The notes beneath the pieces were generated by a model. The model did not search any database and was not told the origin of the DNA. It saw only the letters and a list, made by a program, of their open reading frames with translations. Shown piece after piece: positions 5,655 through 31,858 of a DNA stretch of 64,000 bases. The translations under genes were made by a program, and so were the position numbers. Within the stretch, counting starts at the first letter, position 1. Each line of letters begins with the position of its first letter. This DNA is from Roseburia rectibacter (lineage in GTDB: Bacteria; Bacillota; Clostridia; Lachnospirales; Lachnospiraceae), in the NCBI RefSeq assembly GCF_014287515.2, contig NZ_CP092473.1, positions 3,259,501-3,323,500 on the forward strand. The letters are read 5' to 3'.

Positions 5655-5673
5655 AATTTTTCCTCATGTATAT

Positions 5674-6531: not shown

Positions 6532-6556
6532 GAATTTTCTCCCTGTTTTTCTTATC

Positions 6557-8377: not shown

Positions 8378-8404
8378 TTATTTTCACTCCATATATTTTC
8401 CAAG

Positions 8405-9721: not shown

Positions 9722-9785
9722 TTCATCTGACCTCACTTCACTGCTCTCTCTCAATTAACTACCATAATTTTCCATTTAAAGAACC

Positions 9786-12050: not shown

Positions 12051-12052
12051 AC

Positions 12053-14913: not shown

Positions 14914-15735
14914 TTATTTTTCATATAAAAATTCTTCTGGCAGTGTAACATGAAAGTCTTTCGCAAGATGACGGAAATTATCCGGTGTGATGGTCTGCAG
15001 CTTATCCGGTCTCATGGAAAGCATTTTTACCAGAATCTCCGCGGATTTTTCTGCGGTGTGCATCAGACCAAACGTCAGGTCAAAATCTTCCCCGGCCGCA
15101 AACATACCATGATGTGCCCAGACCGCAAGATCATATTTTTTCATCAGTTCACTGGTTGCAACTGCGATCTCCCTGCCGCCCGGTACCATCCACGGAACTA
15201 CGCCAATGCCTGCCGGGAATACGACCGGACATTCGGTTGCCATCTCCCAGAGTTCTCTCGTAAACACTTTATCTTCCAGCGGCAGAACAAACGTCAACGC
15301 AATGATGTTCGTGGTGTGCGCGTGGTATACGACACGGTACTTCGGGTTCTGTATCTTCTTCACTTCCAGATTCATCAGATGGCTTGGCAGTTCTGATGTC
15401 GGTCTGCCTCCATTTACCAGTCCCCATACGATGCGGTAATTTTCGCCTTTTTCATCCAGTTCGATCATACAGATGGAATCTTCCGGTTTAATGATGACGT
15501 TGCGGAAATATTTGCCGCTTCCGGTCACAAGAAAATATTCTCCCGCCAGATTTGGAACGGATGTCCCGATCGGCTGCCACTTCTTTGCCTCAAAGTTTTC
15601 TTTTACGGATTCTATTTCCTCCGGTTTGACACGATAGGACAGATTTCCGCCATTTCTCTCATGCCATCCCTGCTCCCATCCGTCGTTCGCCATACGGATA
15701 AATCCTTTTACAAATTCTGCATCTATAAATTTCAT
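14914..15735 (-). CDS. rhaD: Rhamnulose-1-phosphate aldolase
   Basis: A 273-residue class II aldolase that cleaves L-rhamnulose 1-phosphate to dihydroxyacetone phosphate and L-lactaldehyde. Zn ligands and catalytic residues are recognisable: E115 in RPTSELPSHL, H138 and H140 in VYHAHTTN, and the His pair in VWAHHGMF near 208. The length matches Escherichia coli RhaD (about 274). AGAGGGAAACGAAC precedes the ATG. It is the third gene of rhaB-rhaA-rhaD, separated from rhaA by 75 bases in which I see no clear hairpin. Confidence 0.96.
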   Translation of the reverse strand: MKFIDAEFVKGFIRMANDGWEQGWHERNGGNLSYRVKPEEIESVKENFEAKKWQPIGTSVPNLAGEYFLVTGSGKYFRNVIIKPEDSICMIELDEKGENYRIVWGLVNGGRPTSELPSHLMNLEVKKIQNPKYRVVYHAHTTNIIALTFVLPLEDKVFTRELWEMATECPVVFPAGIGVVPWMVPGGREIAVATSELMKKYDLAVWAHHGMFAAGEDFDLTFGLMHTAEKSAEILVKMLSMRPDKLQTITPDNFRHLAKDFHVTLPEEFLYEK

Positions 15736-15810: not shown

Positions 15811-17061
15811 CTATGCTCTCTTTACTAACACTTCGCGCTCATATTTTTCAATCTCATCATAGAAATGAAGATCATCACACACGCCTTCCCTACGGCAGTA
15901 TTCTTCCCAGACTTCTCCGATCGGGAGCATTTTCACAGCCTCATTCATCACCATGAGTTTCCCCATCTGATTGGTATCCTGAAGTTCCTTTAACATCTCA
16001 TTCGGTGTGCACAGAGCCATCAGAAGTGCTTTCTGCCAGCTGCGGAAACCGGTTGCAAGTGCTGACACACGGTTAATGCTTGCATCAAAGTAATCTAATG
16101 CCATGTAAACACGGTCTAATGCGTGATCTCTTACGATCTCTTTTGCCATCTCTTTTGTCTCATCATCCAAAATCAGCACATGGTCGGAATCCCAGCGCAC
16201 ACCCCTTGTAATGTGAAGTGCAAATTCTGGGTAAAAACAGAGCATTGCCGGGATCTTATCGGACACATACTCTAACGGATGATAATGTCCGTTGTCCATA
16301 AGCGGCATACATCCATCGTGCAGTGCCGCAAAGCTCAGCGTAAACTCCGCAGAACCTACCGTATAAGACTCCACACCTATTCCAAACACTTTTGATTCCA
16401 CACACGGTTTTACAAGATTTTTATCATACGGCTCTGAGAGGATCTGCTCGATCGAATCCTTATAGCGGAGACGCGGTCCCATACGGTCTGCCGGAACATC
16501 CTTAAATCCATCACCGGTCCAGATGTTCATCACACACGGCATTCCGGTCTCTTTCGCAAAATATTCCGAAATACGGATACATGCTTTTCCGTGGTTGATC
16601 CAGAACTTTCTCGTCTCCTCGTCCGGGCTTGATAAGGTCAATCCGTCCTTTACTTTTTCATGGGAGAAAAATGTAGGATTGAAGTCAATTCCCATGTTGT
16701 GTTTCTTTGCAAATTCTACCCATTTTGCAAAATGCTTTGGCTCTAAGGCATCGCGGTCTGCAAATTCTCCCGATCCAAAAATCGCATAAGATGCATGGAT
16801 ATTCAGCTTTGCCGTTCCAGGCATCAGTTTCATTGCCTCTTCCATATCTACCATGAGCTGTTCCGGTGTCTTCGCACGTCCCATATAATTTCCGGTTGTC
16901 TGGATTCCTCCGGTCAGTCCTCCGTCATTATCAAACCCGATCACATCATCAAGCTGCCAGCAGTGCAGTGATACCGGAACCTTTTTCAATATCTCAATTG
17001 CCTGATCTGTATCCACACCTAATGCTGCATATTTTGCTTTTGCTGCTTCGTAACCTGTCAT
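15811..17061 (-). CDS. rhaA: L-rhamnose isomerase
   Basis: A 416-residue isomerase converting L-rhamnose to L-rhamnulose, close to the usual family length of about 418. Family segments visible include the N-terminal SLHCWQLDDVIGFD, LMDNGHYHPLEYVSDKIP and the metal-binding VRWDSDHVLILDDE. AAAGGAAAAG stands before the ATG. The gene follows rhaB by 16 bases and precedes rhaD. All three enzymes of the phosphorylated rhamnose route are therefore present. A rhamnose mutarotase (RhaM) is not in the window. Confidence 0.97.
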   Translation of the reverse strand: MTGYEAAKAKYAALGVDTDQAIEILKKVPVSLHCWQLDDVIGFDNDGGLTGGIQTTGNYMGRAKTPEQLMVDMEEAMKLMPGTAKLNIHASYAIFGSGEFADRDALEPKHFAKWVEFAKKHNMGIDFNPTFFSHEKVKDGLTLSSPDEETRKFWINHGKACIRISEYFAKETGMPCVMNIWTGDGFKDVPADRMGPRLRYKDSIEQILSEPYDKNLVKPCVESKVFGIGVESYTVGSAEFTLSFAALHDGCMPLMDNGHYHPLEYVSDKIPAMLCFYPEFALHITRGVRWDSDHVLILDDETKEMAKEIVRDHALDRVYMALDYFDASINRVSALATGFRSWQKALLMALCTPNEMLKELQDTNQMGKLMVMNEAVKMLPIGEVWEEYCRREGVCDDLHFYDEIEKYEREVLVKRA

Positions 17062-17077: not shown

Positions 17078-18496
17078 CTATTCTGTATCCTGATTACTTG
17101 TAAAAATATTTATTTCAAACGACTCTGCAATACATGCCCTTGCTGCCTTTAGGTCTTTTAGTTCTCCCGCCGCGATCATCTGTGCAGCAAAGTTTCCGAC
17201 TGCTGTTGCCTCTGTCGGCCCCGCATATACGTTTTTCCCTGCATACTCTGCCGTCAGTTCATTTAAATAATGTGCGTTTGCCCCGCCGCCGACAATCTGT
17301 ATTCTGGAATAATCAATACCTGTCAGTTTTTCTATTTCCTCTGCCGTTTTTGCATAATACTTTGCAAGGCTGTGATAAATGACCGCGGCTAATTCACCAA
17401 TTGTCTGCGGAATCTGTTCCCCTGCTTCTTCGCATGCCGATTTTACTTCCGCTGTCATATTTTCCGGTGCAAGAAATCTCGCATCATTGACATCTACAAA
17501 GGATCTGATCGTTTCTTTTGATGCAAGTGCACAAATTTCTCCAAATCCCATATCCGGTGCGCTTTCTTTTTTCACTGACTGTATCATCCATAATCCCATG
17601 ATATTTTTCAGATAGCGGAATCTGTAATCATAACCGCCTTCATTTGTCATGTTATGCTGCATACTGACTTTGCTGCAATCTGCCTCTTTTAACTCTGTTC
17701 CCATCAATGACCATGTGCCGGAACTGATATAAAGTGCATGCTCCTCCTGCGTTGGAACTGCCATCACCGCAGAAGCAGTATCGTGCGTTGGCGGAAGAAC
17801 TACTTTACAATCAAATCCAACCCTGTTTTGAATATCTTCCGTCAGTCTGCCTAATTCATATCCCGGATTTTGAATTTTATGGAAAATTCTTCGAGGATAT
17901 CCAAGCATATCTATCAATTCAATATCCCAATCTTTTGTCACAGGATTCACAAGCTGGGTCGTTGTCGCATTTGTATATTCCTGTACCTTTTTCCCAGTTA
18001 ATAGAAAATGAAAATAATCCGGTATCATTAACATACTTTTTGCCCACTCAAGCTGCCCCGGCTGCTGCTCTTTGACTGCCATCAGCTGATAGATCGTATT
18101 GAAAATCTGTTTCTGTATTCCAGTTCTTCCGTATAAATCGTCTTCCGGTATAAACTCATATACTTTCCTGCCCATATCTTCCGTCCGTCTGTCCCGGTAC
18201 GCCACTGCATCCCCGATACGTTCATCATTTTCATCCAGCAGAACAAAATCGACTGCCCATGTATCAATACCCATACTATATGGGATTTTTCCTACCATGG
18301 CACATTTTTTCATCCCAGTCAGAATCTCTTGAAATAACTGGTCCACATCCCATACTTTGTGACCATTTTTTTCAATCATGCCATTTGGAAAACGATATAT
18401 CTCTTCCAAAACAATTTTGCCGTTCTCCAGGTGCGAAAGCATATGCCGTCCGCTTGAAGCACCGATATCCACAGCCAGATAATATTTTGTATTCAT
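17078..18496 (-). CDS. rhaB: Rhamnulokinase
   Basis: A 472-residue FGGY-family carbohydrate kinase phosphorylating L-rhamnulose at C1. It has the N-terminal ATPase fold motif DIGASSGRHML, the substrate segment SMGIDTWAVDFVLLD, YISSGTWSLMGTE in the middle and the nucleotide-binding GGGANAHYLNELTA near the C-terminus. AAAGGAGTAAGG precedes the ATG. It is the first gene of rhaBAD. A conserved 65-bp hairpin element begins 34 bases upstream of its start, leaving little space for a conventional promoter between the element and the gene. Confidence 0.96.
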   Translation of the reverse strand: MNTKYYLAVDIGASSGRHMLSHLENGKIVLEEIYRFPNGMIEKNGHKVWDVDQLFQEILTGMKKCAMVGKIPYSMGIDTWAVDFVLLDENDERIGDAVAYRDRRTEDMGRKVYEFIPEDDLYGRTGIQKQIFNTIYQLMAVKEQQPGQLEWAKSMLMIPDYFHFLLTGKKVQEYTNATTTQLVNPVTKDWDIELIDMLGYPRRIFHKIQNPGYELGRLTEDIQNRVGFDCKVVLPPTHDTASAVMAVPTQEEHALYISSGTWSLMGTELKEADCSKVSMQHNMTNEGGYDYRFRYLKNIMGLWMIQSVKKESAPDMGFGEICALASKETIRSFVDVNDARFLAPENMTAEVKSACEEAGEQIPQTIGELAAVIYHSLAKYYAKTAEEIEKLTGIDYSRIQIVGGGANAHYLNELTAEYAGKNVYAGPTEATAVGNFAAQMIAAGELKDLKAARACIAESFEINIFTSNQDTE

Positions 18497-18630: not shown

Positions 18631-20364
18631 TTAAATTTGCTGAAAACTATTCAACTCTTCCAACAGATATTTCGAAGAGTCAACATTTTTTATCACTTGC
18701 TCGTGAATATTTAAAATTGAATTTGCAAGTTTGGTCACATTTTCTGTTGCATTGCTTACTCCACGCACATTTTCCTCTACTACAGCTGATATATTTGTAA
18801 TGCCATCATTCATCTCTGCCATAATATTACGAAGAGACATAATATTTTTATTGAAAAGACCTGTAATAGTATCCATATGATCTGCCTTTTCATAATACAT
18901 ATCTGTTGCAGCCTCAAATTCAACATAATCATTCATTATCTGATTTTGTATGAAATTCATGAGATCTTGTGCATTTGTCATCAATTGATTGACTGCCGCA
19001 ATAACACGAACACTGATACCCTGAATGTCATTTGCCGTATTCTTACTGTTTTCTGCCAATTGACGAATTTCCTCTGCGACAACAGCAAATCCCTTGCCAA
19101 CTTCCCCCGCTCTTGCAGCTTCGATAGAAGCATTTAATGCAAGCAAATTCGTCTGACTTGCGATCTCAAGTATATCGTTAGTTAAATTATTAATACTGCT
19201 GATTTGCCGACTTTCTTCAATGGATAAAGATAATGCCTGACTCTTTTCGTTAATAATATCAGAAATGTCTGTTTTCTTCTTCTCTGTCTCCTCTTTAACA
19301 CCAACCGCTAATGCTTTAATATCAGAGGCAATTACAACACCTTCATTAACTTGATTTCCAACATCGTTAATTGAACTCACTATATCATTGGTGTTCCCGG
19401 TAATTCCCTCTATAGAAGATGATATTTCTTCCATACTCGCAGTAATTTCTTCCATGGTAGACGCAATATTATCTGCATTTTCATTTGAATTGTTTACTTC
19501 TTCATTCATTAATCCAAGTGAACTTTGCATTATTTCTGACTGCTTTCGTATTTTTTGCATAGCATTCTGTAACTGAATGATAAAATTGTTAATTCCATCC
19601 GATAACTGACCAATTTCATCCCGCGAACTAACAGTAATACGCTGCGTAAGATTTCCCTGTTTCTTATTGATACCATCAATAATATCATTTAGCTGCCGGC
19701 TGGCTTCACTTGCCGGTCTACTTACAGTCTTACTTATAACCAAAAAGACAACTACTGATACCAAAGCAAAAAAAGAAAATAGAATTTTTGTCATTATTAA
19801 ATTTGTCTCAACAGCTTGATTATATTCCTTCGATAAATCAGAAATTCCCTGCTCAAGCTCCTCTGTAAGCTCCTTTTCCGTTGTTTCTCCCATATCAACC
19901 ATCAGATTCTGAAAATCTACACCAAGAGCTATACCAGCCTGCACAAAATCCCCCTTGTCAACATACCCTTGTATTATGGCAAATTGCGAAATAACCTCTG
20001 TTAAAAAATCCTCATATGTATGGATTTTATCTTTTAACTCTACATTATCGATATTTTTCAGATATTCATCCATCTTACTCTCACTTGCCGTAATCGTCGA
20101 AATTTCCTCTGCTAGTGAACTTTCCAACTGTTGACGTAGCTCTGCATCATCATACAAACTGATAATGTTAAGATATTTCTGACCTCGTTCCATACTTTTT
20201 TGGATAGTGAAAATCTCTGTCTGAATCGGAATATACTGTTTCGTTATCTGCAATCCAGCCTGTTTTATACTATTCTGCATTCTTATAGAAAACACTGTAT
20301 TTAATCCAAATATCAAAACAAATATAATAATCATTAAAAAAACTTTATTTCCAATTTTTTTCAT
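18631..20364 (-). CDS. Methyl-accepting chemotaxis protein
   Basis: A 577-residue chemoreceptor. It has TM1 at about residues 8-27, an extracellular four-helix-bundle-like sensor (to about 190), TM2 at about 193-213, HAMP and a long coiled-coil signalling domain. The conserved hairpin tip is [20 protein letters not shown], followed by [20 protein letters not shown]. It starts 15 bases after the GH78-like gene and so is the last gene of the ABC importer operon. That placement implies that a ligand related to the imported sugar is detected and that the cell is motile. Confidence 0.95.
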
Positions 20365-20379
20365 ACAAATACCCCACTC

Positions 20380-21864
20380 TTATTTTTCAGAATAATATTT
20401 TCGAAGAAAATAAGCAGGCGCACAACTCCAGGCATGACAGTAACTATTAACAATAGTCCCACCATAAGGTGATTCATCCGGATTATTTGGATTATATAAC
20501 TCCCAAAACGTATCCGCACCAAGTCGTGCCATACCTCCCCAATATTTCTCCATAACACTAAGAGCCTCTGTTTTATCACCACATTTAAGTAATGCTTCTA
20601 TATAATAGTGATACATATATGGGGTAATCATTTCAATTGCCTCTGTCTGTGTCGCAACATCATGTAAAATTCGAATTCCACTCTGCTCATCTACAACATC
20701 ACCAAGAATCATCCATACCTGGCTTGCGTAGGAAATCTGCCTGCAATCACCACTGACAAATAGTCCTTTTTCTTCATCATAAAAATGCATCTTAGCAGCT
20801 TTTCTATAAAGTTCATAAGTTTTCATTATGCATTCTGCATCATGGTCTTTTCCGATTTCTTTTGCAATGGCAACGGCACTTTTCATCGCATACAGCAAAA
20901 CACCCTGTGCACCTGCCTGCTTATTTAATTCCAGTGACCAGTCAAGAAAACACCAGCCGAGTTTATTGCAGTCTTTTACCACACCATCATTACCGACCTG
21001 TTTCTGTGCCAATACAATCTGCATTTTTGCTGTTTCCCACAAATCTTCAAGGGCCTCACGATCCTTCGTTTCTACATAATAATCCCACAGGGCTGCCACA
21101 AACAATAAAGAGTAATCAAACATACTGGTATCATCTACTTCCGGTTCTGGCTCTAAAAATACACATGCACCCACCTGTCCATTTTGCATCGGTAATGCAG
21201 CAAATAAATATAAACACCCCTTTACCATATCATTCATCTGATATGTCTCATAGTTTGCCAATGCCTGTAATCGAAGATCTCCCATCCAAAGTCGCCGATC
21301 ACGTTTTGGTCCATCTTCAAAAACTTTCTGCATACAATCATGCAGTGTATGGCACGCAATATGATCAATCTGCTCCAATTCTTTATGCACATTATGATAT
21401 GGTTTTAACTTACTATCATCTGCAGAAGATAATGCGATTGCCATGACATCTTCAATAACCAAATTAAATTTTGAACTGATATCAAGTATATCAATTTTCA
21501 CATAGCGAAACGAATAACGCCTCGGCAAAGTATACTCTCCCGGAATCAGATCAAAATGAAGTTGTTCCTGTTGTACCCACGCTGAACAGATCCATCCCTG
21601 ATAATTCTCCACATTTTCTTCAAATTCTTTCAAATTCTCTGCAAAGGAAAATCTAATCCAAACCGGAGCATCTGGATGTGAATTGACATAACCCATTTTT
21701 ACTTGAAGATGTCCTACCAAATGTTTCCCAAAATCAATTGTTACCGAATCGCCTTTTCCTAAAGGTTTTGAAAAAAACTGTCCCTCTTTTGGAGGAACCA
21801 GTGTCTCCTTAACTTCCGGCAATAAACTTAATGCCTTACTTAAAAATTCTAAATTTTTTTTCAT
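20380..21864 (-). CDS. GH78-like six-hairpin glycosidase
   Basis: A 494-residue protein with a short N-terminal beta domain and an (alpha/alpha)6 barrel. The motif DGPKRDRRLWMGD gives D184, D189 and D196 with the +5/+12 spacing of GH78 catalytic residues; Asp replaces the usual Glu at the middle place. E455 lies in DTFWELY, the position of the GH78 base, before NSYCHAWSCAPAYFL. It lacks the extra N-terminal modules of the 847-residue rhamnosidase at 3111. Probably an alpha-L-rhamnosidase or relative acting on an imported glycoside. It follows the GH3 gene by 21 bases with only a weak AGAGAAG ribosome site. Confidence 0.82.
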   Translation of the reverse strand: MKKNLEFLSKALSLLPEVKETLVPPKEGQFFSKPLGKGDSVTIDFGKHLVGHLQVKMGYVNSHPDAPVWIRFSFAENLKEFEENVENYQGWICSAWVQQEQLHFDLIPGEYTLPRRYSFRYVKIDILDISSKFNLVIEDVMAIALSSADDSKLKPYHNVHKELEQIDHIACHTLHDCMQKVFEDGPKRDRRLWMGDLRLQALANYETYQMNDMVKGCLYLFAALPMQNGQVGACVFLEPEPEVDDTSMFDYSLLFVAALWDYYVETKDREALEDLWETAKMQIVLAQKQVGNDGVVKDCNKLGWCFLDWSLELNKQAGAQGVLLYAMKSAVAIAKEIGKDHDAECIMKTYELYRKAAKMHFYDEEKGLFVSGDCRQISYASQVWMILGDVVDEQSGIRILHDVATQTEAIEMITPYMYHYYIEALLKCGDKTEALSVMEKYWGGMARLGADTFWELYNPNNPDESPYGGTIVNSYCHAWSCAPAYFLRKYYSEK

Positions 21865-21885: not shown

Positions 21886-23571
21886 TTACCATTTTAAGTA
21901 TTCTTTTCCACAAAACGGATCTACCGGACTCTTGCCAGTAAAATTGCTTCTTCCCATAAGTTTTTCCATCACACTATCAATTACATACTCACTATTGGAA
22001 TAGCCATTGATAAAGGTTTTTATCATGGGTACATCCACAAGATGATATGGATTAGCAAGGCTGATAAACACAACCGGTCTCTCAGCAGCAAACCATGGAA
22101 CGTTATTTCCATTTCCCCAGAATGTATACCATGAAAGTCGGTTTGTCACTTTATTGGATGCATTTTCTACATTTCCAATATAAATGACCAGATCATAATT
22201 CTTCCGGAATGTGCCAACATCAAATTTTGCTGTTTCAAAGTTCTCCTGTTCATATACGTTAACTTCGAACCCCTCCTCAACCAATCGCTTACGAAAGCTT
22301 TCCAAAACACGCTCATTTGATGGAAACCCACCTATGATTTCCAGCAACACCTTTTTGGTCTTATGCGGATTCAACGGTAAAATTCCATCTATATCCTTTA
22401 CAAGTGTAACTGCCTTGTCTGCGCTCTTTTTAGCCCATGCAACATGCTCATCAGCCTGCAGAATACAAAGTGCACTTTCCGAAGGCACAATTTCACACTT
22501 TGCTTTTCTGTGAAGTCCAAGCGAAGCTTTAGTTGCAAGAATTCTTGTGATTGCTTCATCTAATCGCTGTTCCGAAAGGATTCCCTGCTTGTATCCATTC
22601 AGCATATACTGATAATCTTCCTCAAGATCCTTATTAAAAAGGAACATATCACATCCTGCCTCAATCGCATAAGGAACTGCCCTTTCTCTGTTCATTGCAC
22701 AGCTAAAACCTACCATGCAGGTAGAATCCGTTACAATCAGACCGTTAAATCCCAATTTTTTACGGAGCAAACCTTTTAACAATTCCGATGAAAGTGTTGC
22801 CGGTATTAATTTATTTGGAAAATCTGTATTATACGATTTTTGATATGCCGGCTGTGCAATATGTCCGACCATCACTGTCTGTGCCCCCGCCTGAATCAAG
22901 CCGCTATATATTTTTCCATATGTCGCATCCCACTCATCACAGGAAAGATTATTTACGCTTGTAAGAATGTGCTGATCCACTTCATCGCAGCCATCCCCTG
23001 GGAAATGCTTAATTGCAACAAGAACATTTTCTTCCTTAGCTGCCCTCATGTAATTGAGACCACATGCAAGAACACGATCCGGATCATCCCCATATGTACG
23101 CACGTTTGTAATCGGATTTCTCCAATTTCTATCAATATCAACCACAGGTGCAAAAGCCCAGTTACAACCAACCGCTGCACCTTCACTACAGCTTACTTTT
23201 CCGAGCCGATATGCATCCTCCGTGTCTCCAGTTGCCGCAACCTGCATTTGTTTTCCGTACTGTGTTCCATCTGTTGCAATTCCGCAGCCTCCATCCTCAA
23301 GATTAGCTCCAATAAGAAGTGGGATCTTACTGTGTTCCTGCAGATAACGGTGTGTCCGCTGCATTTCCTTCGCCTCACCACAACGATACATAATTCCACC
23401 AATGTGATGTGCGAGCATGACATGTTCCAGATATTGCGGATCTCCGGAATACCCGATTGGGACAAACAACTGACCTATTTTTTCTTCTAATGTCATTGAC
23501 TTTTTTGTATTTTCAACCCATTCAATGTCTTCCCCTGAAAGGAAGAATGGATTCTTTGTTAAGTTGATCAT
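21886..23571 (-). CDS. GH3 glycosidase, two-domain NagZ-like type
   Basis: A 561-residue family 3 hydrolase without the FN3 domain of beta-glucosidases. The TIM barrel contains IKHFPGDGCDEVDQH (residues 187-201), the motif region where NagZ-type enzymes carry a His/Asp acid-base, and the nucleophile D282 in GLIVTDS. An alpha/beta sandwich domain follows. Beta-N-acetylhexosaminidase activity is the family expectation but beta-glucosidase is possible. I set the start at 23571, since GGAGG is 8 bases before this ATG but only 2 before the ATG at 23577. Cytoplasmic, in the ABC importer operon. Confidence 0.87.
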   Translation of the reverse strand: MINLTKNPFFLSGEDIEWVENTKKSMTLEEKIGQLFVPIGYSGDPQYLEHVMLAHHIGGIMYRCGEAKEMQRTHRYLQEHSKIPLLIGANLEDGGCGIATDGTQYGKQMQVAATGDTEDAYRLGKVSCSEGAAVGCNWAFAPVVDIDRNWRNPITNVRTYGDDPDRVLACGLNYMRAAKEENVLVAIKHFPGDGCDEVDQHILTSVNNLSCDEWDATYGKIYSGLIQAGAQTVMVGHIAQPAYQKSYNTDFPNKLIPATLSSELLKGLLRKKLGFNGLIVTDSTCMVGFSCAMNRERAVPYAIEAGCDMFLFNKDLEEDYQYMLNGYKQGILSEQRLDEAITRILATKASLGLHRKAKCEIVPSESALCILQADEHVAWAKKSADKAVTLVKDIDGILPLNPHKTKKVLLEIIGGFPSNERVLESFRKRLVEEGFEVNVYEQENFETAKFDVGTFRKNYDLVIYIGNVENASNKVTNRLSWYTFWGNGNNVPWFAAERPVVFISLANPYHLVDVPMIKTFINGYSNSEYVIDSVMEKLMGRSNFTGKSPVDPFCGKEYLKW

Positions 23572-23590
23572 ATTCATACCCTCCTGCTTT

Positions 23591-24595
23591 CTATTTTCGT
23601 TTTCCGTTAAAAAGACTTACCAATAAATGTTCATTACTCAAATAAATCAAAAAGACTACAAGCAGTACTGCATTAATGATTGCCTGCATTGATGCATTTA
23701 CCTCATTGGAGAATACAGCAAATGTTGAATTAAGCATGGACATACATAAAGCAGCTAAAAGGAATCCAATTTTTTCGTTTGTAAAGCGACTGATATAGGA
23801 GCCTATGAACATTGGAAGAAACGCCGTAAACATAATGCTGATAGAGGAAAAGTTCAACTGACCACCGTTGATTGTTGTGCTTCTTGTCGCATTTAAAAAT
23901 CCTACAATTCCCATCAATCCGCCACAGATCACATAACATCCAATGGCATTTGATATCTCTTTTATACCGGTATTTACCGCAACCTTCTGACCATTTTTGA
24001 GTGCATTATAATCATATCCAAACTTTGTGTAATCAAAGATTGCTATACAGACAGCTAACACAACCACAATAATGATTGCTGCATAAATCCAGCTTCCTGT
24101 AAAAGCTGTCATAGATGGATTCTGCACTTCCTTCATCACATAACGTCCTTCCGTGATTGTAAAAAGAATTCCCTCATAGATCAGTGTCACTCCAAGAGAT
24201 GTAATGATTGGCGGCAGATGCAGCACCACATACATAAGTCCTGAAACAAGTCCAAGTAACATACCAAATAAGATCGTCAATATCAACATCATCAATGCAC
24301 TGTTACTTCCACCACCTAAAATGGAATATGTAATTTTAGCTCCTAATACAGAAGAAAGTGCTGCCATTGATCCCAAGGAAAAATCAAAACGACCACTATT
24401 TAAATTAATGGATAATGCTATTGTTGTAATCATCACAATTGCAATATATACAACAAAGTTATCAAAACCTGTCATGTTTGAAATCATTGTTTTTCCATTG
24501 AACATGCAGATTCCCTGCAATAATACAGCCACCAGTACCGGTATTGTTAATGTACCAATTACATTCTTTACCAAATGTCTATTTTTATTTTTCAT
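23591..24595 (-). CDS. Sugar ABC transporter permease (RbsC family), second permease
   Basis: A 334-residue polytopic permease of the CUT2/ribose type, with hydrophobic helices throughout and the family segment LNSGRFDFSLGSMAALSSVL. The ATG at 24595 follows AAAGGAGAGGACAAC. An earlier ATG overlaps that ribosome site. It is distinct from the permease at 26007 and would form a heterodimeric channel with it. A pair of strong hairpins separates it from the binding-protein gene. Confidence 0.92.
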   Translation of the reverse strand: MKNKNRHLVKNVIGTLTIPVLVAVLLQGICMFNGKTMISNMTGFDNFVVYIAIVMITTIALSINLNSGRFDFSLGSMAALSSVLGAKITYSILGGGSNSALMMLILTILFGMLLGLVSGLMYVVLHLPPIITSLGVTLIYEGILFTITEGRYVMKEVQNPSMTAFTGSWIYAAIIIVVVLAVCIAIFDYTKFGYDYNALKNGQKVAVNTGIKEISNAIGCYVICGGLMGIVGFLNATRSTTINGGQLNFSSISIMFTAFLPMFIGSYISRFTNEKIGFLLAALCMSMLNSTFAVFSNEVNASMQAIINAVLLVVFLIYLSNEHLLVSLFNGKRK

Positions 24596-24633
24596 GTTGT
24601 CCTCTCCTTTCATTTTTCAGGATATTCCATACC

Positions 24634-24721: not shown

Positions 24722-25936
24722 TTACTTCGATGTTACAAGTTCATTGATCTCATCAAAAGTAACAGACTCACCAATAATCTGGTCTAATGTTTCTTTATTG
24801 TAAATTGGATTATCTCCGTTATCTGACTTATAAAACTCATCAAATGTAGCCTCGTCAGTTGCAACCTGATAGTTTTGGCTGAGTGAGACTGCATTTCCCT
24901 GTTCATCACGGATTACATTTCCATTGATGGCATTTAAAACTAATGCAAATGCAGGACCTACAGAAGATGAATATTTACCGGCAAGATAGACAAGTTTTCC
25001 ATTTGTGATAGCTTCTCCATTACTCTGTGTAAAGGAATCAATATCTGAGAACTCAATACCAGCAGCATTTAACTGCTGTGTAAAAAATGTTGTTGCCATT
25101 CCCACTGAAATAAATGCTTCCGGTTTTGCCTGAATTGCTGCATTGATCTCATCTGTTGTTGTATCACCATAGCCCTGCAGATAAGAAACAATCTGGATAT
25201 CCCCAGAAATCTTAGACAAATCCACGCTCTGATCAGTAAAAATCTTGCCCACTACTTCTCCCTCTTCTGTAGCACCATCATAGGAAAGTCCCAGACCGGA
25301 AAGTACACCCGCTACACGGTATACATGCATAGGATTTGGAATAAATGCCCCATAGATAGCAGCTGTCTTAATGCCTTTTTCCGCAAAGAACCTGCCCATT
25401 TCTACACCAGCTTCATACTCTGTATCCATGCTTGGTCCAACCTGACCAAGGAAGTACTCATTTGTCTTATATTTTTCAAACTGCTCCTGATCAAGAGTTC
25501 CAGCAGCAACCGCATAATAAATCTGATTTTCCTCACAGGTTTCAATCTGCAATGCACGATCATTACTTGAAAGAGAGATGACTGCCTGATATCCCTGTGA
25601 AGCGAATTTTTCTATAGCAGACTTCTCGCTTGCCGCATCTTTAAGTTCATCGGTATAAGTAAATGTCACACCATACTGATTCGCAACATAATCTTCATAA
25701 TAAGTACGGAACCCTAATGCTTCCTCGCCACTAACATCCTGAACTAAAACACCAATCTTAGCATTCTCTGCTGTCTTTGTCTCCTCCTTGACACTTGTAT
25801 CACTCGTATCATTTGCTGTGTTGTCGCTGGCTGTATTGTCAGCTGTTTCTTTGCTGTTTCCACAACCAACCAGCATTGTCAACGATATGGCAGCAACCAG
25901 TCCAAGGCTTACCATTTTCTTCATTGTACGTTTCAT
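24722..25936 (-). CDS. Sugar ABC transporter substrate-binding lipoprotein
   Basis: A 404-residue periplasmic-binding-like protein anchored by a lipobox: charged N-terminus, hydrophobic stretch, LTMLVGC with lipidated Cys25, then a Thr/Asp/Asn-rich linker. The remainder has the two-lobed fold of the RbsB/type I sugar-binding family (KIGVLVQDVSGEEALGFRTY at the start of lobe 1). GGGAGGAATAATTT precedes the ATG. The sugar bound is not deducible. It is the receptor of the importer encoded by its neighbours and a candidate partner of the chemoreceptor at 18631. Confidence 0.92.
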   Translation of the reverse strand: MKRTMKKMVSLGLVAAISLTMLVGCGNSKETADNTASDNTANDTSDTSVKEETKTAENAKIGVLVQDVSGEEALGFRTYYEDYVANQYGVTFTYTDELKDAASEKSAIEKFASQGYQAVISLSSNDRALQIETCEENQIYYAVAAGTLDQEQFEKYKTNEYFLGQVGPSMDTEYEAGVEMGRFFAEKGIKTAAIYGAFIPNPMHVYRVAGVLSGLGLSYDGATEEGEVVGKIFTDQSVDLSKISGDIQIVSYLQGYGDTTTDEINAAIQAKPEAFISVGMATTFFTQQLNAAGIEFSDIDSFTQSNGEAITNGKLVYLAGKYSSSVGPAFALVLNAINGNVIRDEQGNAVSLSQNYQVATDEATFDEFYKSDNGDNPIYNKETLDQIIGESVTFDEINELVTSK

Positions 25937-26006: not shown

Positions 26007-26972
26007 TTATCGCGGCAACATCTGCGAACGATAATTTGCACTTGCAACATAAACAACTACCAGAAAAAAAACAGCACTGACAATCTGTGTAATTCCATAT
26101 CCAGATGTTGAATCAATCAGCAGATCCAGAATATTATTTAAAATAATATAGGAAAATCCACCGACTACAGCCGCATAAATTTTCGATCTTGCACCTCCTG
26201 AGATTGGCATACCTCCAAACACGATAGCAACCATAATGTTCATCCCTATATCCCCCGCTGTCGTTGTTGTAACAGATGGGGTATAAACCAGCGTCATAAA
26301 TGCGCCGATTCCAACGCCGATTCCCGCCAGAAGGAATCCAAGTATTGCATATGTATTGTATTTAATACCGGAAAGCTGGGCGCAGATTGGATTTCCCCCA
26401 ACAAACTTTTCACGTCTTCCAAACTTGGTGTAATCAAAGATGAACGCACATACTACCACCCATATTACCAAAACTATAATTTTAAATGCGGATGTATCCA
26501 AATGTTTCACTACCTCACTCGGAATGCTGATTCCGCCTACTGCACCACCTTTTGTGGTAATGATCTGTGATGCAATTGCAGACAAAACAGACATCATTGC
26601 CACCGTTGTAACAAACACCGGAATATGAAAAATGGATGCCAGCACAGAATTTAACAAAGAACAGACAATTCCAGACAATAAAATCACAACAATCATTAAT
26701 ATAAAATTTTCAGTTGCATTATATGTCATTACCCCAAGTGTTGCTGAAAAAAGCGTTGCCGCACCCAAGCTGATATCAAACGAACCTAATGTATAAATAA
26801 ATATTGCACCTGTTGCAACAATGGATAATACAATACCTTCATTAAATATAATCTTGATATACATATCCAGGCGATATCCCTTACTGCTTACAATTCCACA
26901 AAATACTGCAAACAATACGATAAGTGCTGCAAACGGCAATGCACCTATCATTATTTTTTTACTTTTTGTCAT
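26007..26972 (-). CDS. Sugar ABC transporter permease (RbsC family), first permease
   Basis: A 321-residue polytopic inner-membrane permease of the ribose/galactose class, with the family segment YTLGSFDISLGAATLFSATL and several Gly-rich helices. TAGGAGG is 9 bases before the ATG. It lies 13 bases behind the ATPase gene. Two different permeases in one operon indicate a heterodimeric membrane part. Confidence 0.92.
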   Translation of the reverse strand: MTKSKKIMIGALPFAALIVLFAVFCGIVSSKGYRLDMYIKIIFNEGIVLSIVATGAIFIYTLGSFDISLGAATLFSATLGVMTYNATENFILMIVVILLSGIVCSLLNSVLASIFHIPVFVTTVAMMSVLSAIASQIITTKGGAVGGISIPSEVVKHLDTSAFKIIVLVIWVVVCAFIFDYTKFGRREKFVGGNPICAQLSGIKYNTYAILGFLLAGIGVGIGAFMTLVYTPSVTTTTAGDIGMNIMVAIVFGGMPISGGARSKIYAAVVGGFSYIILNNILDLLIDSTSGYGITQIVSAVFFLVVVYVASANYRSQMLPR

Positions 26973-26985
26973 CTTTCCCAGCCTC

Positions 26986-28488
26986 CTATATCATGTACTC
27001 AATAATCTGTGAGTCAGAAAGATTTTTATTTCTCTCAAATTCTGCCGTAATCTCTCCGTCCTTCATGATCAAAATCCGATCACTCATTCCAATGAGTTCC
27101 GGCATTTCCTCGCTGATCATCAGAATGGATTTTCCTTCATTTTTCAACTTAACCATAAGCTGATACATTGCCTGCTTTACACCAATATCCACGCCTCGTG
27201 TCGGGCAGTCCAGTATAAGAATTTCACTTCCGCAGCCAATCCATTTTCCAAATACGACTTTCTGTTTATTTCCTCCCGAGAGTTGTGATACCGCCTGATC
27301 TCTTCCAGAACATTTAATGGACAATTCCTCAATCTGTTGATTTACATATTTTTTTTCGCGATTTTTTAAAACAAGAAAATCTTTTACGGCAAATTTGCTC
27401 ATTCCCGCAATTGATATGTTGTCTTCAATACTTGCATTCAAACATAATGATTCCACATCTCTATCCTTAGACACATAACCCATACGTTTCTTCATCGCTT
27501 TTGCCGGACTGTCAATTACCGTTCCATCTGCCACTGAAACATTTCCTTCTTCTGGCTTTACTGCACCAAAACATACCTTTCCAAGTGTATGCATTCCACA
27601 ATGTGCCAGACCTCCGACTCCAACAATTTCTCCCCTTCGCACCTGGAAGGAAACACCTTTCAGTCTATCTGTATAAACAAGATTTTTAACATTCAACGCA
27701 ACTTCCTGCTGTGCGCTTGCTTCAAAATCACTTCGATAATAATCCCCCTGCAGTTCTCGTCCGATCATGCTTGAACGAATTGCACCCGCTTCAAACTCTT
27801 CTTTATTAAATGTTCTGATTATTTTTCCATCTCGAAGAACCGTTAAAGTATCACACACCTCCATAATCTCATCCAGATCATGTGAAATAAAAATCACTGA
27901 CTTATTTTCTTTGCGGAAACGATTCATAATATCATATAAAATTTCCCTTCCATCATGAGATAAGGCAGTGCTTGTCTCATCAATTACCAAAATCTGAGGC
28001 TGTTTCATCACGACCTTTGCAATCTCTACAAGCTTTCTTGTCTGAAAATCCAGCTGTTGCATAAGCATATCGCCAGTAATATCATTTACCCCAATTTTTT
28101 TCATGACTTCAGTTGCATCTGCATTCATCTTCCTGCGATTGATCAATCCAAACCTGTTTTTATACCTCTCTGTCTCTGCCAGAAAAATATTTTCCGCAAC
28201 TGTAATTCCCGGTATTGTTCCGCTTTCCTGAACGATCATTCCAATCCCCTTGTGAAGTGCATCAATCATACTAAGAGGTTTCCAGTCCTGATTTTTAAAT
28301 ATCATCTTACCACTATCGCATGCCTGCATTCCTGCTACAATGGAAGTAATGGTTGACTTTCCTGATCCATTCTCCCCAATTAATCCCCGAATTTCCCCCG
28401 GATATACAGAAAGTGACACATCTTTTAAAGCCACTGTACTTCCGAATCTTTTATTCATGTTTTCAACTTTTAATATTGGTTCACTCAT
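26986..28488 (-). CDS. Sugar ABC transporter ATPase with two nucleotide-binding domains
   Basis: A 500-residue RbsA/MglA-type ATPase made of two fused NBDs. The first has Walker A GENGSGKST and Walker B ILVIDE with the switch His in VIFISHD. The second has a degenerate Walker A (GLAHCGMHTLGK), the signature SQLSGGNKQKV and Walker B EILILDCPTRG, as is normal for the family. The start at 28488 follows GAGGTGATAAAC. It is the first gene of the importer-GH3-GH78-like-chemoreceptor operon and is divergent from the AraC-GH39 regulator across 237 AT-rich bases. Confidence 0.94.
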   Translation of the reverse strand: MSEPILKVENMNKRFGSTVALKDVSLSVYPGEIRGLIGENGSGKSTITSIVAGMQACDSGKMIFKNQDWKPLSMIDALHKGIGMIVQESGTIPGITVAENIFLAETERYKNRFGLINRRKMNADATEVMKKIGVNDITGDMLMQQLDFQTRKLVEIAKVVMKQPQILVIDETSTALSHDGREILYDIMNRFRKENKSVIFISHDLDEIMEVCDTLTVLRDGKIIRTFNKEEFEAGAIRSSMIGRELQGDYYRSDFEASAQQEVALNVKNLVYTDRLKGVSFQVRRGEIVGVGGLAHCGMHTLGKVCFGAVKPEEGNVSVADGTVIDSPAKAMKKRMGYVSKDRDVESLCLNASIEDNISIAGMSKFAVKDFLVLKNREKKYVNQQIEELSIKCSGRDQAVSQLSGGNKQKVVFGKWIGCGSEILILDCPTRGVDIGVKQAMYQLMVKLKNEGKSILMISEEMPELIGMSDRILIMKDGEITAEFERNKNLSDSQIIEYMI

Positions 28489-28725
28489 GTTTATCACCTC
28501 GTCTTTATAGATATTATAAGTTTTCATTAATTTTCATGTGATTTTGTTTTTTATCTGTTTCACTTTAATTTTTAACTTTTTTATGTCTGCTCTTCTTTTC
28601 TTTCCACATCTTTTCAATCCGTCATACAAAACAGATTAAAAATTCGATGTTTTTATTGATTTTTTCATTACATTTATGTTTTAATCATTACAATATCTTA
28701 TTTAGTTTTAAATGGGGGATTTTTT

Positions 28726-31221
28726 ATGTCAGAAAATTACGATCTTATTTCAGAAAATGATATGCACATGCCCATTCGCTGTATAATGCAGCGTTTTGAT
28801 CATATTCGTTCACAAATGCATGACTATTTTGAATTATCAATGATTGTTTCCGGGAACTGTACATTGCAACTGGATGATCATATATACAATTTAACAGAAG
28901 ATGACGTGTTCTGTGTTAATCCACTCTCGCTTCATGAACTTCATGGTGTCAACTGTGTGATTGTAACCGTTTTATTCAACCAGACTTTGTTTGAACAGAT
29001 TCTACCCGTTCCATTCCATCCTCGCTTTTTCTTTATCAGTACGATGACCGATAATCAGGAAGCTATTGTCCAACTCCGCACTCTGATAGCGCACATTATC
29101 AAAACAAATGTTGATAAAAAAGATGGGTATGAATTACGAAACTGGTCTTATATCTACAATATTATGGATGTACTGTATCGGAACTTCCGCATCAAACTCT
29201 CTACTGCTAAAGAAAAGAAAAATCACAAGTATGCTTTACGTATTTCCGAAATCTCACAGTTGATCCAGCAGCATTACACGGAAAATATAACCTTACAAGA
29301 ACTTGCTGATGCAGTCCATTTGTCCGTTCCATATCTTTCTAAGTTTTTTGTGGAATATTACGGAATGAATTTTTTAAGCTATCTTAACCAATACCGCCTT
29401 ATGCACGCAGTACAGGAACTCTCAACCACTGATAAGAATATTGATGAAATAGCGATTGACAGCGGTTTTTCCAACAGTCATGCCTTTGTAACTTTTTTTA
29501 AAAAGCAATACGGGATGTTACCAAAAGACTATCGCCGTGAACAAAAAAAGAAGAAAGAGAATACTGCCCAACGTGTAGAACAACATAACTATATTTACGG
29601 ATTAAAAAAATATTTGAAAGAAGATACATTTTTTCAGGTTGTATCTCCTGTGAAAAAAACTGAAATTGAGATTTCTGTAAACGGAAGTTCCTATACTCTG
29701 CTTCACACCTGGAAAAAAATGATGACCGTTGGGCGGGCAAGTGATGTACTAATTTGTGATGTTCAAAAAATGTTAACACAGATTCAGGAAACAGTTGGAT
29801 TTGAATATATTAAATTATGTGGCATCTTTTCTGATGATCTGCATATATACAATGAAACTGCAAGTAAAGTCCCGGTCTATAGCTTTTCTTATCTTGATAA
29901 GATTTTGGATTTTGTTATCGTCAATCACCTAAAACCCTGGCTTCAATTATCCTACATGCCGGAAAAACTTGCAAAATATCCAAACAGACGATTGTTTGGT
30001 GCAAATGTCAGCCAGCCCCACTCTGTCAGTGCATGGTGTCAGCTGGTCCATGAATTTTTGCTTCACATCACTGACCGTTACGGGTTAGATACCATAAAGA
30101 CCTGGAAATTTGGTCTATGGAACCAACCGAATACTTCTTCCGACCTATTTGGCTTTACAAACGAAAATGACTTTTTTCTATTCTATAAAAGCACTTATGA
30201 TTGTATTAAAGATTTTTGCCCTGATATCGAATTTAGTCTTCCTCCAACCTACTACATTGTAGGCGAAAGCTATGAAAACTGGTATCTGAACTTTTTGGAA
30301 TGGTGTAAAAAAAATTCCTGTCTTCCAGACTGTTTAAGTTTTACATACTACGACACTAAAATGATTTCCGATAAAAATCATTCCAAGGAATCGTTTGGTT
30401 TTGTGTATGCAATGAGTCTTTCTGAATCTCCTGATGGGTTAAAAGATTTTGTTATGCAGGTTCTCCGTGAACGACGCCAGCTTGGACTTGGTAATATGCC
30501 AATCTACCTGTCAGAATGGAACAACACACCAAGCCAGCAGGATTTGCTCAATGATACATGTTTTAAATCGTGCTACATTGTAAAAAATATTTTGGAAAAT
30601 TATGACCGACTAGATAGTTTTACTTATCAGGCTCTTACCGATCTTATGGCAGATGACGCTCTGCCCAACAAACTCTTTTTCGGTGGACTAGGTCTGTTCA
30701 CGGTAAATGGAATTCCAAAAGCAAGTTATTATGCTTATACTCTCTTACGGCAGTTAGGAGATCAGTTTTTAGGACGAGGAGACGGTTATTTCATTACCCG
30801 TAAACACAACAGTTATCAGATTATGTTGTACAATTACAAACATTTTAACTATCTTTATGCCAACGGAGAACGTTTTGATATGACAGAAACAGATCGCTAT
30901 ACTGTATTTGCAGATTCTGATCCAGTCACAATCGAACTATGTCTTTCTAATATTCCGCAAGGTACATACAAAATTTCTGAGACTTATGTAAATCGAACAC
31001 ATGGGAGTTCTTATGACCAATGGGTTTCCATGGGTGGATTAGAACTTACCACTCCTTATGAATTTGACTTGTTAAAAAAAGCATCCTCTCCAGGATTCCA
31101 TCAGAAGCTGATGCATATCGCTTCTGATGAAACCCTAAGATTGAATGCAGAATTAGAACTATTAGAGATTCGACTTATTCAAATCACACCTGTCATCTGC
31201 CCATCTGACGTTAGCAGATAG
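28726..31221 (+). CDS. AraC regulator fused to a GH39-like domain with mutated acid/base
   Basis: An 831-residue fusion. Residues 1-100 form a cupin-like sensor and about 170-272 the AraC double HTH (ITLQELADAVHLSVPYLSKF and IDEIAIDSGFSNSHAFVTFF). From about 310 to 800 runs a GH39 beta-xylosidase-like TIM barrel and beta domain. The acid/base signature reads WNQPN (W465-N466-Q467), where active GH39 enzymes have WNEPN; the codon is CAA at 30124-30126. The nucleophile E597 (IYLSEWNN) is kept. The domain therefore probably binds rather than cleaves a glycoside and serves as the inducer sensor for the divergent ABC/GH operon. AATGGGGGATTTTTT precedes the ATG. Its 3' end overlaps pgmB by 11 bases. 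Confidence 0.9.
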   Translation: MSENYDLISENDMHMPIRCIMQRFDHIRSQMHDYFELSMIVSGNCTLQLDDHIYNLTEDDVFCVNPLSLHELHGVNCVIVTVLFNQTLFEQILPVPFHPRFFFISTMTDNQEAIVQLRTLIAHIIKTNVDKKDGYELRNWSYIYNIMDVLYRNFRIKLSTAKEKKNHKYALRISEISQLIQQHYTENITLQELADAVHLSVPYLSKFFVEYYGMNFLSYLNQYRLMHAVQELSTTDKNIDEIAIDSGFSNSHAFVTFFKKQYGMLPKDYRREQKKKKENTAQRVEQHNYIYGLKKYLKEDTFFQVVSPVKKTEIEISVNGSSYTLLHTWKKMMTVGRASDVLICDVQKMLTQIQETVGFEYIKLCGIFSDDLHIYNETASKVPVYSFSYLDKILDFVIVNHLKPWLQLSYMPEKLAKYPNRRLFGANVSQPHSVSAWCQLVHEFLLHITDRYGLDTIKTWKFGLWNQPNTSSDLFGFTNENDFFLFYKSTYDCIKDFCPDIEFSLPPTYYIVGESYENWYLNFLEWCKKNSCLPDCLSFTYYDTKMISDKNHSKESFGFVYAMSLSESPDGLKDFVMQVLRERRQLGLGNMPIYLSEWNNTPSQQDLLNDTCFKSCYIVKNILENYDRLDSFTYQALTDLMADDALPNKLFFGGLGLFTVNGIPKASYYAYTLLRQLGDQFLGRGDGYFITRKHNSYQIMLYNYKHFNYLYANGERFDMTETDRYTVFADSDPVTIELCLSNIPQGTYKISETYVNRTHGSSYDQWVSMGGLELTTPYEFDLLKKASSPGFHQKLMHIASDETLRLNAELELLEIRLIQITPVICPSDVSR

Positions 31222-31858
31222 AACAAATAGAAAGCAGATCTTTAAATGCCTGAATCGGATATGTCACTTGGCTATGACCTGCGGCATCTCCGATTCCAGC
31301 ACTCTGAAAATCACCAGCATAAGCAGCATCAATACCGGCAAGCGCATCCTCTACGACCAGACAATTTTCAGGTTTTTCACCAAGCATCTCAGCCGCTTTC
31401 AAAAATACTTCCGGATCCGGCTTTGATTTCGTAATATTCGTTCCGTCACTAATTGCATCAAAGTATCCGTTTAATCCAATCTGTGTCAGAATCTTTTTCG
31501 TATTTTTACTGCTTGATCCAATCGCAAGCTTATACCCTCGCTGACGTAATATTTCCAGTGTCTTTTTTACCTCCTGCGACAGATCATCCGGAGACATCTT
31601 TTCCAACAGACGAACATAACTTTCATTCTTCCTTGCGGCAAGTTGTTCTTTTTCCTCCTGTGTATATTCTCTTGATGCTTTCTCCAAAATAATGTCCAGA
31701 CTTTCCATACGACTTACTCCCCGTAGTCTGCCATTAATTGTCTCATCGAAATAAATTCCTTCTGCGTCTGCCATTTCTTTCCATGCCTGATAATGATACT
31801 GATCCGTAAAGCATATAACACCATCCAAGTCAAAAATAATTGCACGTATTGTATTCAT
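31211..31858 (-). CDS. pgmB: Beta-phosphoglucomutase-like HAD phosphatase
   Basis: A 215-residue HAD hydrolase with the beta-phosphoglucomutase look: nucleophile and acid D10/D12 (FDLDGVICFTD), a small helical cap containing GVSRMESLDIIL, motif II IGSSSKN, motif III lysine and the acidic pair VVEDALAGIDAA. It would interconvert beta-glucose 1-phosphate and glucose 6-phosphate. No disaccharide phosphorylase is in the window, so its partner is unknown. Another sugar-phosphatase role is possible. AAGGGGGTATCCT precedes the ATG, and copy 2 of the hairpin repeat begins 43 bases upstream. Confidence 0.85.
   Translation of the reverse strand: MNTIRAIIFDLDGVICFTDQYHYQAWKEMADAEGIYFDETINGRLRGVSRMESLDIILEKASREYTQEEKEQLAARKNESYVRLLEKMSPDDLSQEVKKTLEILRQRGYKLAIGSSSKNTKKILTQIGLNGYFDAISDGTNITKSKPDPEVFLKAAEMLGEKPENCLVVEDALAGIDAAYAGDFQSAGIGDAAGHSQVTYPIQAFKDLLSICSIC

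Follow-up and report, generated by a model that had tools for sequence, protein, structure and literature searches.

The protein encoded at positions 28726-31221 on the forward strand of a 64,000 nucleotide stretch of the Roseburia rectibacter genome (contig NZ_CP092473.1, positions 3,259,501 to 3,323,500; hereafter the window) is a fusion of an AraC-type regulator and a glycoside hydrolase family 39 (GH39) domain, in which the catalytic acid/base glutamate is replaced by glutamine and the nucleophile glutamate is retained. The same one-sided change is found in most members of the clade to which this protein, termed P0001, belongs, and acid/base residues other than glutamate recur elsewhere among fusions of this type. 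P0001 is probably the regulator of a divergently transcribed operon for rhamnoside utilisation, with a GH39 pocket that is non-catalytic and senses a rhamnoside or its product.

P0001 is 831 aa long (a second record, P0002, is identical) and unites a glycoside hydrolase domain with a regulatory output in a single open reading frame (ORF). An N-terminal AraC_binding domain, or cupin (residues 25-124, positions 28798-29097; PF02311, E = 1.4e-8), is followed by an HTH_18 DNA-binding domain (residues 193-271, positions 29302-29538; PF12833, E = 4.7e-23) and a C-terminal Glyco_hydro_39 domain (residues 314-790, positions 29665-31095; E = 9.8e-63), all encoded on the forward strand. A further match to PF00165 completes the double helix-turn-helix (HTH) of AraC/XylS regulators. 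The ORF, its coordinates and the order of its domains are as given in an earlier reading of this DNA, referred to below as the original prediction. The predicted structure, from a run with 90 of 124 proteins as input, agrees with the Pfam match in placing the C-terminal part in GH39, and shares its fold with the family's beta-xylosidases (XynB1, 2bs9 and 1w91; TsXynB, 1px8; XacXynB, 6uqj), superposing on 1w91 over 479 residues with a root-mean-square deviation of 2.6.

When P0001 is aligned to the solved GH39 xylosidases, Q467 (codon CAA, 30124-30126) falls on the acid/base E160 of 2bs9, within a W465-N466-Q467-P468-N469 motif encoded by TGG AAC CAA CCG AAT, and E597 (codon GAA, 30514-30516) falls on the nucleophile E278. 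Both assignments bear out the original prediction, as does the replacement of Glu by Gly ahead of the tryptophan, although this residue, G463, stands two positions before W465 and not three as had been claimed. Compared with an active retaining enzyme of the family, P0001 thus has the nucleophile Glu and lacks both the acid/base Glu and the catalytic His, the latter (H228 of 2bs9) being T540. In full, residues C365, N466, Q467, T540 and Y542 occupy the positions of H54, N159, E160, H228 and Y230 of 2bs9, and E597, Q635, A642 and D643 those of E278, W316, E323 and E324. A shift of the acid/base function to the Asp found two residues downstream in WNQPD motifs was considered and rejected, as P0001 has Asn469 there and fusions with an intact acid/base also carry Asp or Glu at this position.

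The extent of the substitution was assessed in a collection of 222 loci and 123 protein records, which supplied AraC-GH39 fusions as well as standalone GH39 proteins. The protein homologs comprised the best 120 of 159 and the best 120 of 160 matches, and 80 of 91 locus matches were kept, representing 77 loci. Two families were scanned for PF01229 at E ≤ 1e-30: in the first, 31 of 200 genomes had a match, and in the second, 45 of 148. Among the matches listed for each, 39 of 57 and 50 of 63 lay in open frames of more than 700 aa. Within an alignment of P0001 and homologs of at least 43% identity, which used 120 of 121 records with P0002 left out as identical to P0001, the acid/base position was occupied by Q in 111 proteins, L in five, E in two, and A and T in one each; the nucleophile was Glu in 119 of the same 120. 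For the final count, a test for the HTH domain was used to define 272 fusions, with 31 duplicates, eight proteins with a short GH39 part and three weak matches dropped, and with 30 short proteins (24 with the Glu and six resembling pieces of fusions) and four fragments set aside. The original prediction had proposed that such fusions be aligned at the WNEPN position: across the 272, the acid/base Glu is missing from 186, the residues being Q in 126, E in 86, L in 14, S, P and D in nine each, A in seven, V and N in three each, T and I in two each, and K and C in one each, with the share of Q inflated by the seeding of the sample with P0001. The nucleophile, by contrast, is E in 265, D in four, and A, Q and N in one each. 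It is kept in 182 of the 186 fusions without the acid/base Glu (the exceptions being P0113, L216, L127 and L204), and in all 24 short proteins that have the latter residue. This asymmetry between the two positions is independent of the inflated share of Q.

A FastTree phylogeny was constructed from 238 GH39 domains, reduced from 301 by removal of those with at least 85% identity, without the alignment columns around both catalytic positions, and drawn with 2bs9 as the outgroup. The standalone xylosidases, all with glutamate at both catalytic positions (E/E), lie at the base of the tree. E/E fusions, those that carry S, P, D, A or another residue at the acid/base position, and the clade containing P0001 (the Q-clade) are nested among one another. 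A single fusion of AraC and GH39 appears likely; the branch uniting the fusions has a weak support of 40. The acid/base changed from E to another residue at least 14 times on this tree. Non-Glu nucleophiles are found in only five of the 238 rows, through five changes that each affect a single tip. The Q-clade consists of 120 rows with a support of 100, and its sister rows (P0124, L031 and L033) are E/E. Among the 113 of its rows filed as fusions, which form a non-redundant set, the acid/base residue is Q in 96, L in nine, E in six, and A and T in one each, and the nucleophile is Glu in 112.

By its distribution, the Gln at the acid/base position is old and not recent. Since it is conserved over the whole clade (96 of 113, and 111 of the 120 aligned proteins), both a recent point mutation and a sequencing error were rejected as explanations. 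A search of 397 genomes of the family of G008 with P0001 matched 14 genomes at a best identity of 46%, and so found no near ortholog with DNA context among them. The original prediction had considered the site to be one base change away from an active one. An origin of the Gln by a single base change is possible in principle, but the change is old, and P0001 is not one base from an active site because the equivalents of H54, H228, W316 and E323 have also changed.

These further changes were placed in context by comparing the pocket among 23 standalone proteins, 54 fusions with the acid/base Glu (E-type), 36 fusions outside the Q-clade without it, and 113 Q-clade fusions, in a classification that files some fusions with an early start of the GH39 match as standalone. 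The third of these groups is defined by the missing Glu, such that its 0% at the acid/base position is by construction. Of 46 positions conserved in at least 80% of the standalone and E-type proteins, one of which (237) is an alignment gap column with no residue, the least kept in the other two groups are N159, H228, H54, E323 and E160 in 2bs9 numbering. The substrate-site residues of XacXynB include His61, Asn161, Glu162, His228, Tyr230, Glu279, Trp317 and Glu325 according to PMC7242879. As the XacXynB chain lies outside the alignment, these were matched to H54, N159, E160, H228, Y230, E278, W316 and E324 of 2bs9 by kind of residue and order; E323 is absent from that list, and adjoins the equivalent of a listed residue, E324. 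The His is termed catalytic in PMC8543862. The five least kept positions thus include the acid/base and the catalytic His; of the other three, two belong to the substrate site and the third adjoins a substrate-site residue.

The remainder of the old site is far better preserved. The nucleophile is kept in 34 of the 36 fusions without Glu outside the Q-clade and in 112 of 113 within it, and Y230 in 27 and 112, while the E324 position is acidic in 33 and in all 113. Within the Q-clade, the Trp at W316 is kept in 103 members, and the Asn of the NEP motif and the catalytic His in 36 each. The clade also has invariant residues of its own just past the nucleophile (P602, S603, D606 and L608, each in 113 of 113), which speak for selection on a new pocket and not for decay.

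Facing the regulator is a gene order that is conserved along with it. All on the reverse strand, it comprises genes for a sugar ABC transporter ATPase (26986-28527; identified from NCBIfam and Pfam), a permease (26007-26972; PF02653), a putative substrate-binding lipoprotein (24722-25936), a second permease (23591-24613; PF02653), a GH3 enzyme with the beta-glucoside phosphorylase BglX as its nearest solved relative (21886-23577; 5vqd, E = 5.5e-146) and a GH78 alpha-L-rhamnosidase with 4xhc as its own (20380-21864; E = 7.8e-137). The lipoprotein is assigned by position, as Pfam and PDB sequence searches with it gave no match. Beyond these, on the same strand, lie genes for a rhamnulokinase (17078-18496; TIGR02627, 573.6 bits against a cut-off of 527.95), an L-rhamnose isomerase (15811-17061; 583.7 bits for NF002203, with a cut-off of 572, and 528.8 for TIGR01748, below its cut-off of 584.95) and a rhamnulose-1-phosphate aldolase (14914-15735; 323.8 bits for NF002963, with a cut-off of 170, and 332.3 for TIGR02624, below its cut-off of 400.95). 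The presence of this alpha-L-rhamnosidase, kinase, isomerase and aldolase in the cluster points to rhamnosides, and not xylosides; a xyloside was accordingly rejected as the first-choice ligand, the operon being part of a rhamnoside cluster. In our reading, 4xhc corresponds to KoRha from Klebsiella oxytoca. KoRha removes rhamnose from rutin, a phenolic rhamnosyl-glucoside, according to PMC4690510. Judged from sequence, the cluster would fit the import of a rhamnosyl-glucoside and the stepwise removal of rhamnose and glucose from it.

Conservation of the operon was compared between 44 Q-lineage records and 33 other AraC-GH39 records. For each gene, records were included if their upstream sequence was long enough; given their shared ancestry, they are not independent. 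Upstream of the Q-lineage regulators, homologs of the ATPase were found in 39 of 42 records, the first permease in 35 of 36, the other permease in 32 of 34, the binding lipoprotein in 33 of 34, the GH3 enzyme in 30 of 32 and the GH78 enzyme in 25 of 28. By contrast, the ATPase was found in nine of 33 of the other records, even with weak matches included, GH3 in six of 28 and GH78 in none of 28. In two E/E sister records, L031 and L033, the regulator is preceded by the ABC genes and GH3 and followed by the isomerase and kinase, without a GH78 of the window's type. In three Q-clade records with Glu at the acid/base position (L003, L012 and L036), the GH3 scores 959-972 bits against that of the window, compared with 506-765 bits for other Q-lineage GH3 enzymes. 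A beta-phosphoglucomutase gene (31211-31858; TIGR01990 above cut-off) is convergent to the regulator in the window, and 17 of 27 Q-lineage records have a homolog upstream of the regulator that runs in the direction of the divergent ABC operon.

The divergent intergenic region contains a candidate operator, AACATCGAATTTTTAATCTGTTTT, at 28628-28651 on the reverse strand. With a weight matrix made without the window, this site scores 30.9, the next best in the 64 kb scoring 16.4. The comparison drew on 42 divergent regions (that of the window, 34 of the Q-lineage and seven others), which with flanks of 60 bases each total 18.6 kb. Of 31 occurrences of TTTTTAATCT in 777 kb of the 42 records, 30 are inside this intergenic set, distributed over 28 regions. 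For the longer ATTTTTAATCT, there are 22 occurrences in the set and none in the other 760 kb of the same records; after shuffling, it was found in at most one of 42 regions. It is only through comparison across records that the motif stands out, as its core is unremarkable in the window alone: when one mismatch was allowed, AGATTAAAAATT was found locally twice, where 1.54 occurrences were expected. A stricter first pattern for the motif was present in just one of the 42 regions, and a scan of the intergenic region for sigma-70 promoters found three, compared with a mean of 2.4 in shuffles. The motif is present in both orientations (18 and five of 23), and thus better fits a protein binding site than a promoter element. 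We infer that P0001 binds it.

How these components might work together can be outlined as follows. The GH39 barrel would descend from an ancestor with both catalytic glutamates, and would have become a ligand-binding domain on losing hydrolysis; by its place in a DNA-binding protein, it should be cytoplasmic. The old -1 region may be occupied by a rhamnoside taken up by the cell, or by what remains after its partial breakdown (rhamnosyl-glucose or a glucoside, for example), and E597, the former nucleophile, and the acidic D643 at the E324 position would hold hydroxyls of the sugar there. Replacement of Glu by Gln at the acid/base position is a change that crystallographers use to hold a ligand uncut. 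Gln467 could hydrogen-bond to the glycosidic oxygen without donating a proton, such that the ligand is not consumed. Occupancy of the pocket would alter the seating of the AraC part at 28628-28651, such that the genes for the transporter, GH3, GH78 and rhamnose catabolism are transcribed more, and perhaps the regulator's own gene as well. The original prediction of a glycosidase turned into a sensor for the divergent ABC and glycoside hydrolase operon is upheld as regards the lost acid/base, the kept nucleophile and the facing operon, while the sensing itself is only likely.

A number of observations weigh against this scheme, in addition to the seeding of the sample. Homologs of the rhamnose isomerase were found in only three of 77 related records (L006, L031 and L033), with flanks of up to 10 kb a side, and close matches to the rhamnulokinase of the window likewise in three (L031, L033 and L038), other kinase matches being weak at 210-331 bits; this scarcity of rhamnose catabolism genes near relatives slightly lowered our confidence in the scheme. 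Six of the 113 Q-clade members have Glu at the acid/base position. In P0001 and nine others the Trp at W316 is lost, by which the binding of sugar may itself be altered, and P0001 keeps the NEP Asn as N466, making its pocket less decayed there than that of most of the clade. The TTTTTAATCT core also occurs 20 times in about 701 kb of 36 records without such an intergenic stretch, and so the string alone is unspecific. Loss of other pocket residues along with the acid/base was not significant over ten independent pairs on supported branches among the results listed, and a claim of coupled loss in independent lineages was rejected as an overclaim. Finally, it could be the N-terminal cupin that actually does the sensing.

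This last point leads to an alternative in which the GH39 part binds no ligand and serves in structure or oligomerisation, and the cupin senses sugar, as in AraC. The recognisable AraC_binding domain of P0001 and the loss of its W316 Trp are consistent with such an arrangement, which is nonetheless unlikely, as strong conservation of the old pocket (the nucleophile, Y230, the acid at E324 and the loop 602-608) is not expected of a mere scaffold. A narrower proposal is that E597 might persist purely because the fold requires it to pair with residues nearby, in which case it would be uninformative on any ligand. The ancestrally conserved D320, D291 and W153 are indeed kept equally well, but the acid/base Glu has been freely lost, as has the catalytic His, whereas Y230 and the acid at E324 have not; this account is rather unlikely, and bears on just one step of the scheme, being compatible with a sensor.

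Two other possibilities would grant E597 its old chemistry. In the first, an elaboration of the covalent trap raised in the original prediction, E597 would be glycosylated without need of an acid by a phenolic glycoside that resembles those of flavonoids and has a good leaving group, and the Gln would slow clearance of the adduct, resulting in long-lived induction. A structural precedent is PDB 2bfg, from a GH39 enzyme with a mutated acid/base (E160A, as named in PMC7242879); its title gives dinitrophenyl-xyloside and a covalently bound xyloside as the ligands. Such trapping would also agree with the near-invariant nucleophile of the Q-clade, the retention of N466 in P0001, and the fair leaving groups of phenolic rhamnosyl-glucosides, on one of which, rutin, KoRha (here taken to be 4xhc) acts. 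However, natural bonds between sugars are not expected to react without an acid, and with the NEP Asn and the catalytic His each remaining in 36 of 113 members, nucleophile chemistry across the family is unlikely; we regard covalent trapping as very improbable. The second possibility is that of an active retaining glycosidase for activated or thio-glycosides, working with Gln and an external base, through which the regulator would consume its inducer. Plant myrosinases, of family GH1, have Gln at the acid/base position and use ascorbate as the base. They thus share with P0001 a natural change from Glu to Gln and a kept nucleophile, and differ in being active enzymes of another family that are not regulators. 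A title cited in PMC5991390 has ascorbate replacing the catalytic base. Given that the equivalents of H54, H228, W316 and E323 are altered in P0001, and that the operon suggests no substrate of this kind, activity of this sort is very unlikely. There is also little probability that a wider combination holds in full, namely that AraC-GH39 enzymes repeatedly became sensors by discarding the acid/base, with selection retaining the nucleophile as a reader of the ligand, and that the P0001 lineage may be glycosylated reversibly or slowly by phenolic rhamnosyl-glucosides as a one-component covalent memory.

The preferred interpretation, of a disarmed glycosidase sensing a rhamnoside or its product, has partial parallels in known systems. 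P0001 differs from the GH39 beta-xylosidases, with which it shares the nucleophile Glu and Tyr230, in its Gln acid/base, the Thr in place of the catalytic His, the altered H54, W316 and E323 positions, and the fusion to AraC. The AraC-GH39 fusions with both glutamates have the same architecture, and seven records outside the Q-lineage (L031, L033, L040, L044, L045, L048 and L052, with the acid/base Glu read in five) also face an ABC and GH3 operon; the E-type fusions are distinguished by a -1 site that is mostly kept (H228 in 48 of 54 and E323 in 44 of 54) and by the lack of an upstream GH78 of the window's type. An N-terminal AraC-like domain has been described for some GH39 xylosidases (PMC8543862). 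Similarly, RsgI6 of Clostridium thermocellum has a GH10 domain with very low activity that keeps carbohydrate binding and serves as the sensor of an anti-sigma factor, according to PMC4711584. This protein likewise employs a glycoside hydrolase domain in a regulatory role, but is extracellular and membrane-bound with a domain of another family, whereas P0001 is a one-component regulator with a defined acid/base loss. The best NCBIfam match of P0001 is AryK of Staphylococcus (NF047455), at 182.2 bits and with its best stretch over residues 28-407, far under the family cut-off of 850 bits; the words xylosidase and glycos- are absent from the main text of two papers on AryK and Rsp. Among the papers listed by literature searches, judged by title and start of abstract and with subscription papers mostly outside the coverage, there was no study of AraC-GH39 sensors or of acid/base loss in such regulators. 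Both AraC-GH39 fusions and sensors derived from glycoside hydrolases are already in print, and the new element is the lineage-wide, one-sided loss of the catalytic pair in a one-component regulator.

Other features of the window and of the wider sample may be noted. A gene for a methyl-accepting chemotaxis protein (18631-20364, reverse strand; PF00015 and PF00672) sits between those for the rhamnosidase and rhamnulokinase on the same strand, which suggests that chemotaxis is tied to rhamnosides. A second glycan cluster at 3111-13537, also on the reverse strand, encodes GH78, GH43 with an F5/F8 domain, GH1, GH2 and an MFS_2 transporter, and has an AraC-type gene beside it (13720-14910). In Anaerocolumna sedimenticola (L065, L091 and L106), several PF01229 frames are split or have in-frame stops, such that some of its paralogs look decayed. 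Between five and eight PF01229 matches are present in the genomes of L039, L041, L065, G077, G120 and G303; several of the frames exceed 800 aa, suggesting that AraC-GH39 paralogs have expanded in number there.

Annotation based on Pfam counts regulators of this kind as GH39 enzymes, and with 186 of 272 fusions in the P0001-seeded sample lacking the acid/base Glu, tallies of carbohydrate-active enzymes may misread regulators as enzymes. The AraC-GH39 family represents a natural series, from E/E through Q/E to other residues, along which the transition of an enzyme into a sensor can be traced. For the clostridial lineage of P0001, known here from metagenome-assembled or uncultured genomes, the analysis provides a link to plant rhamnosides with a defined promoter motif.

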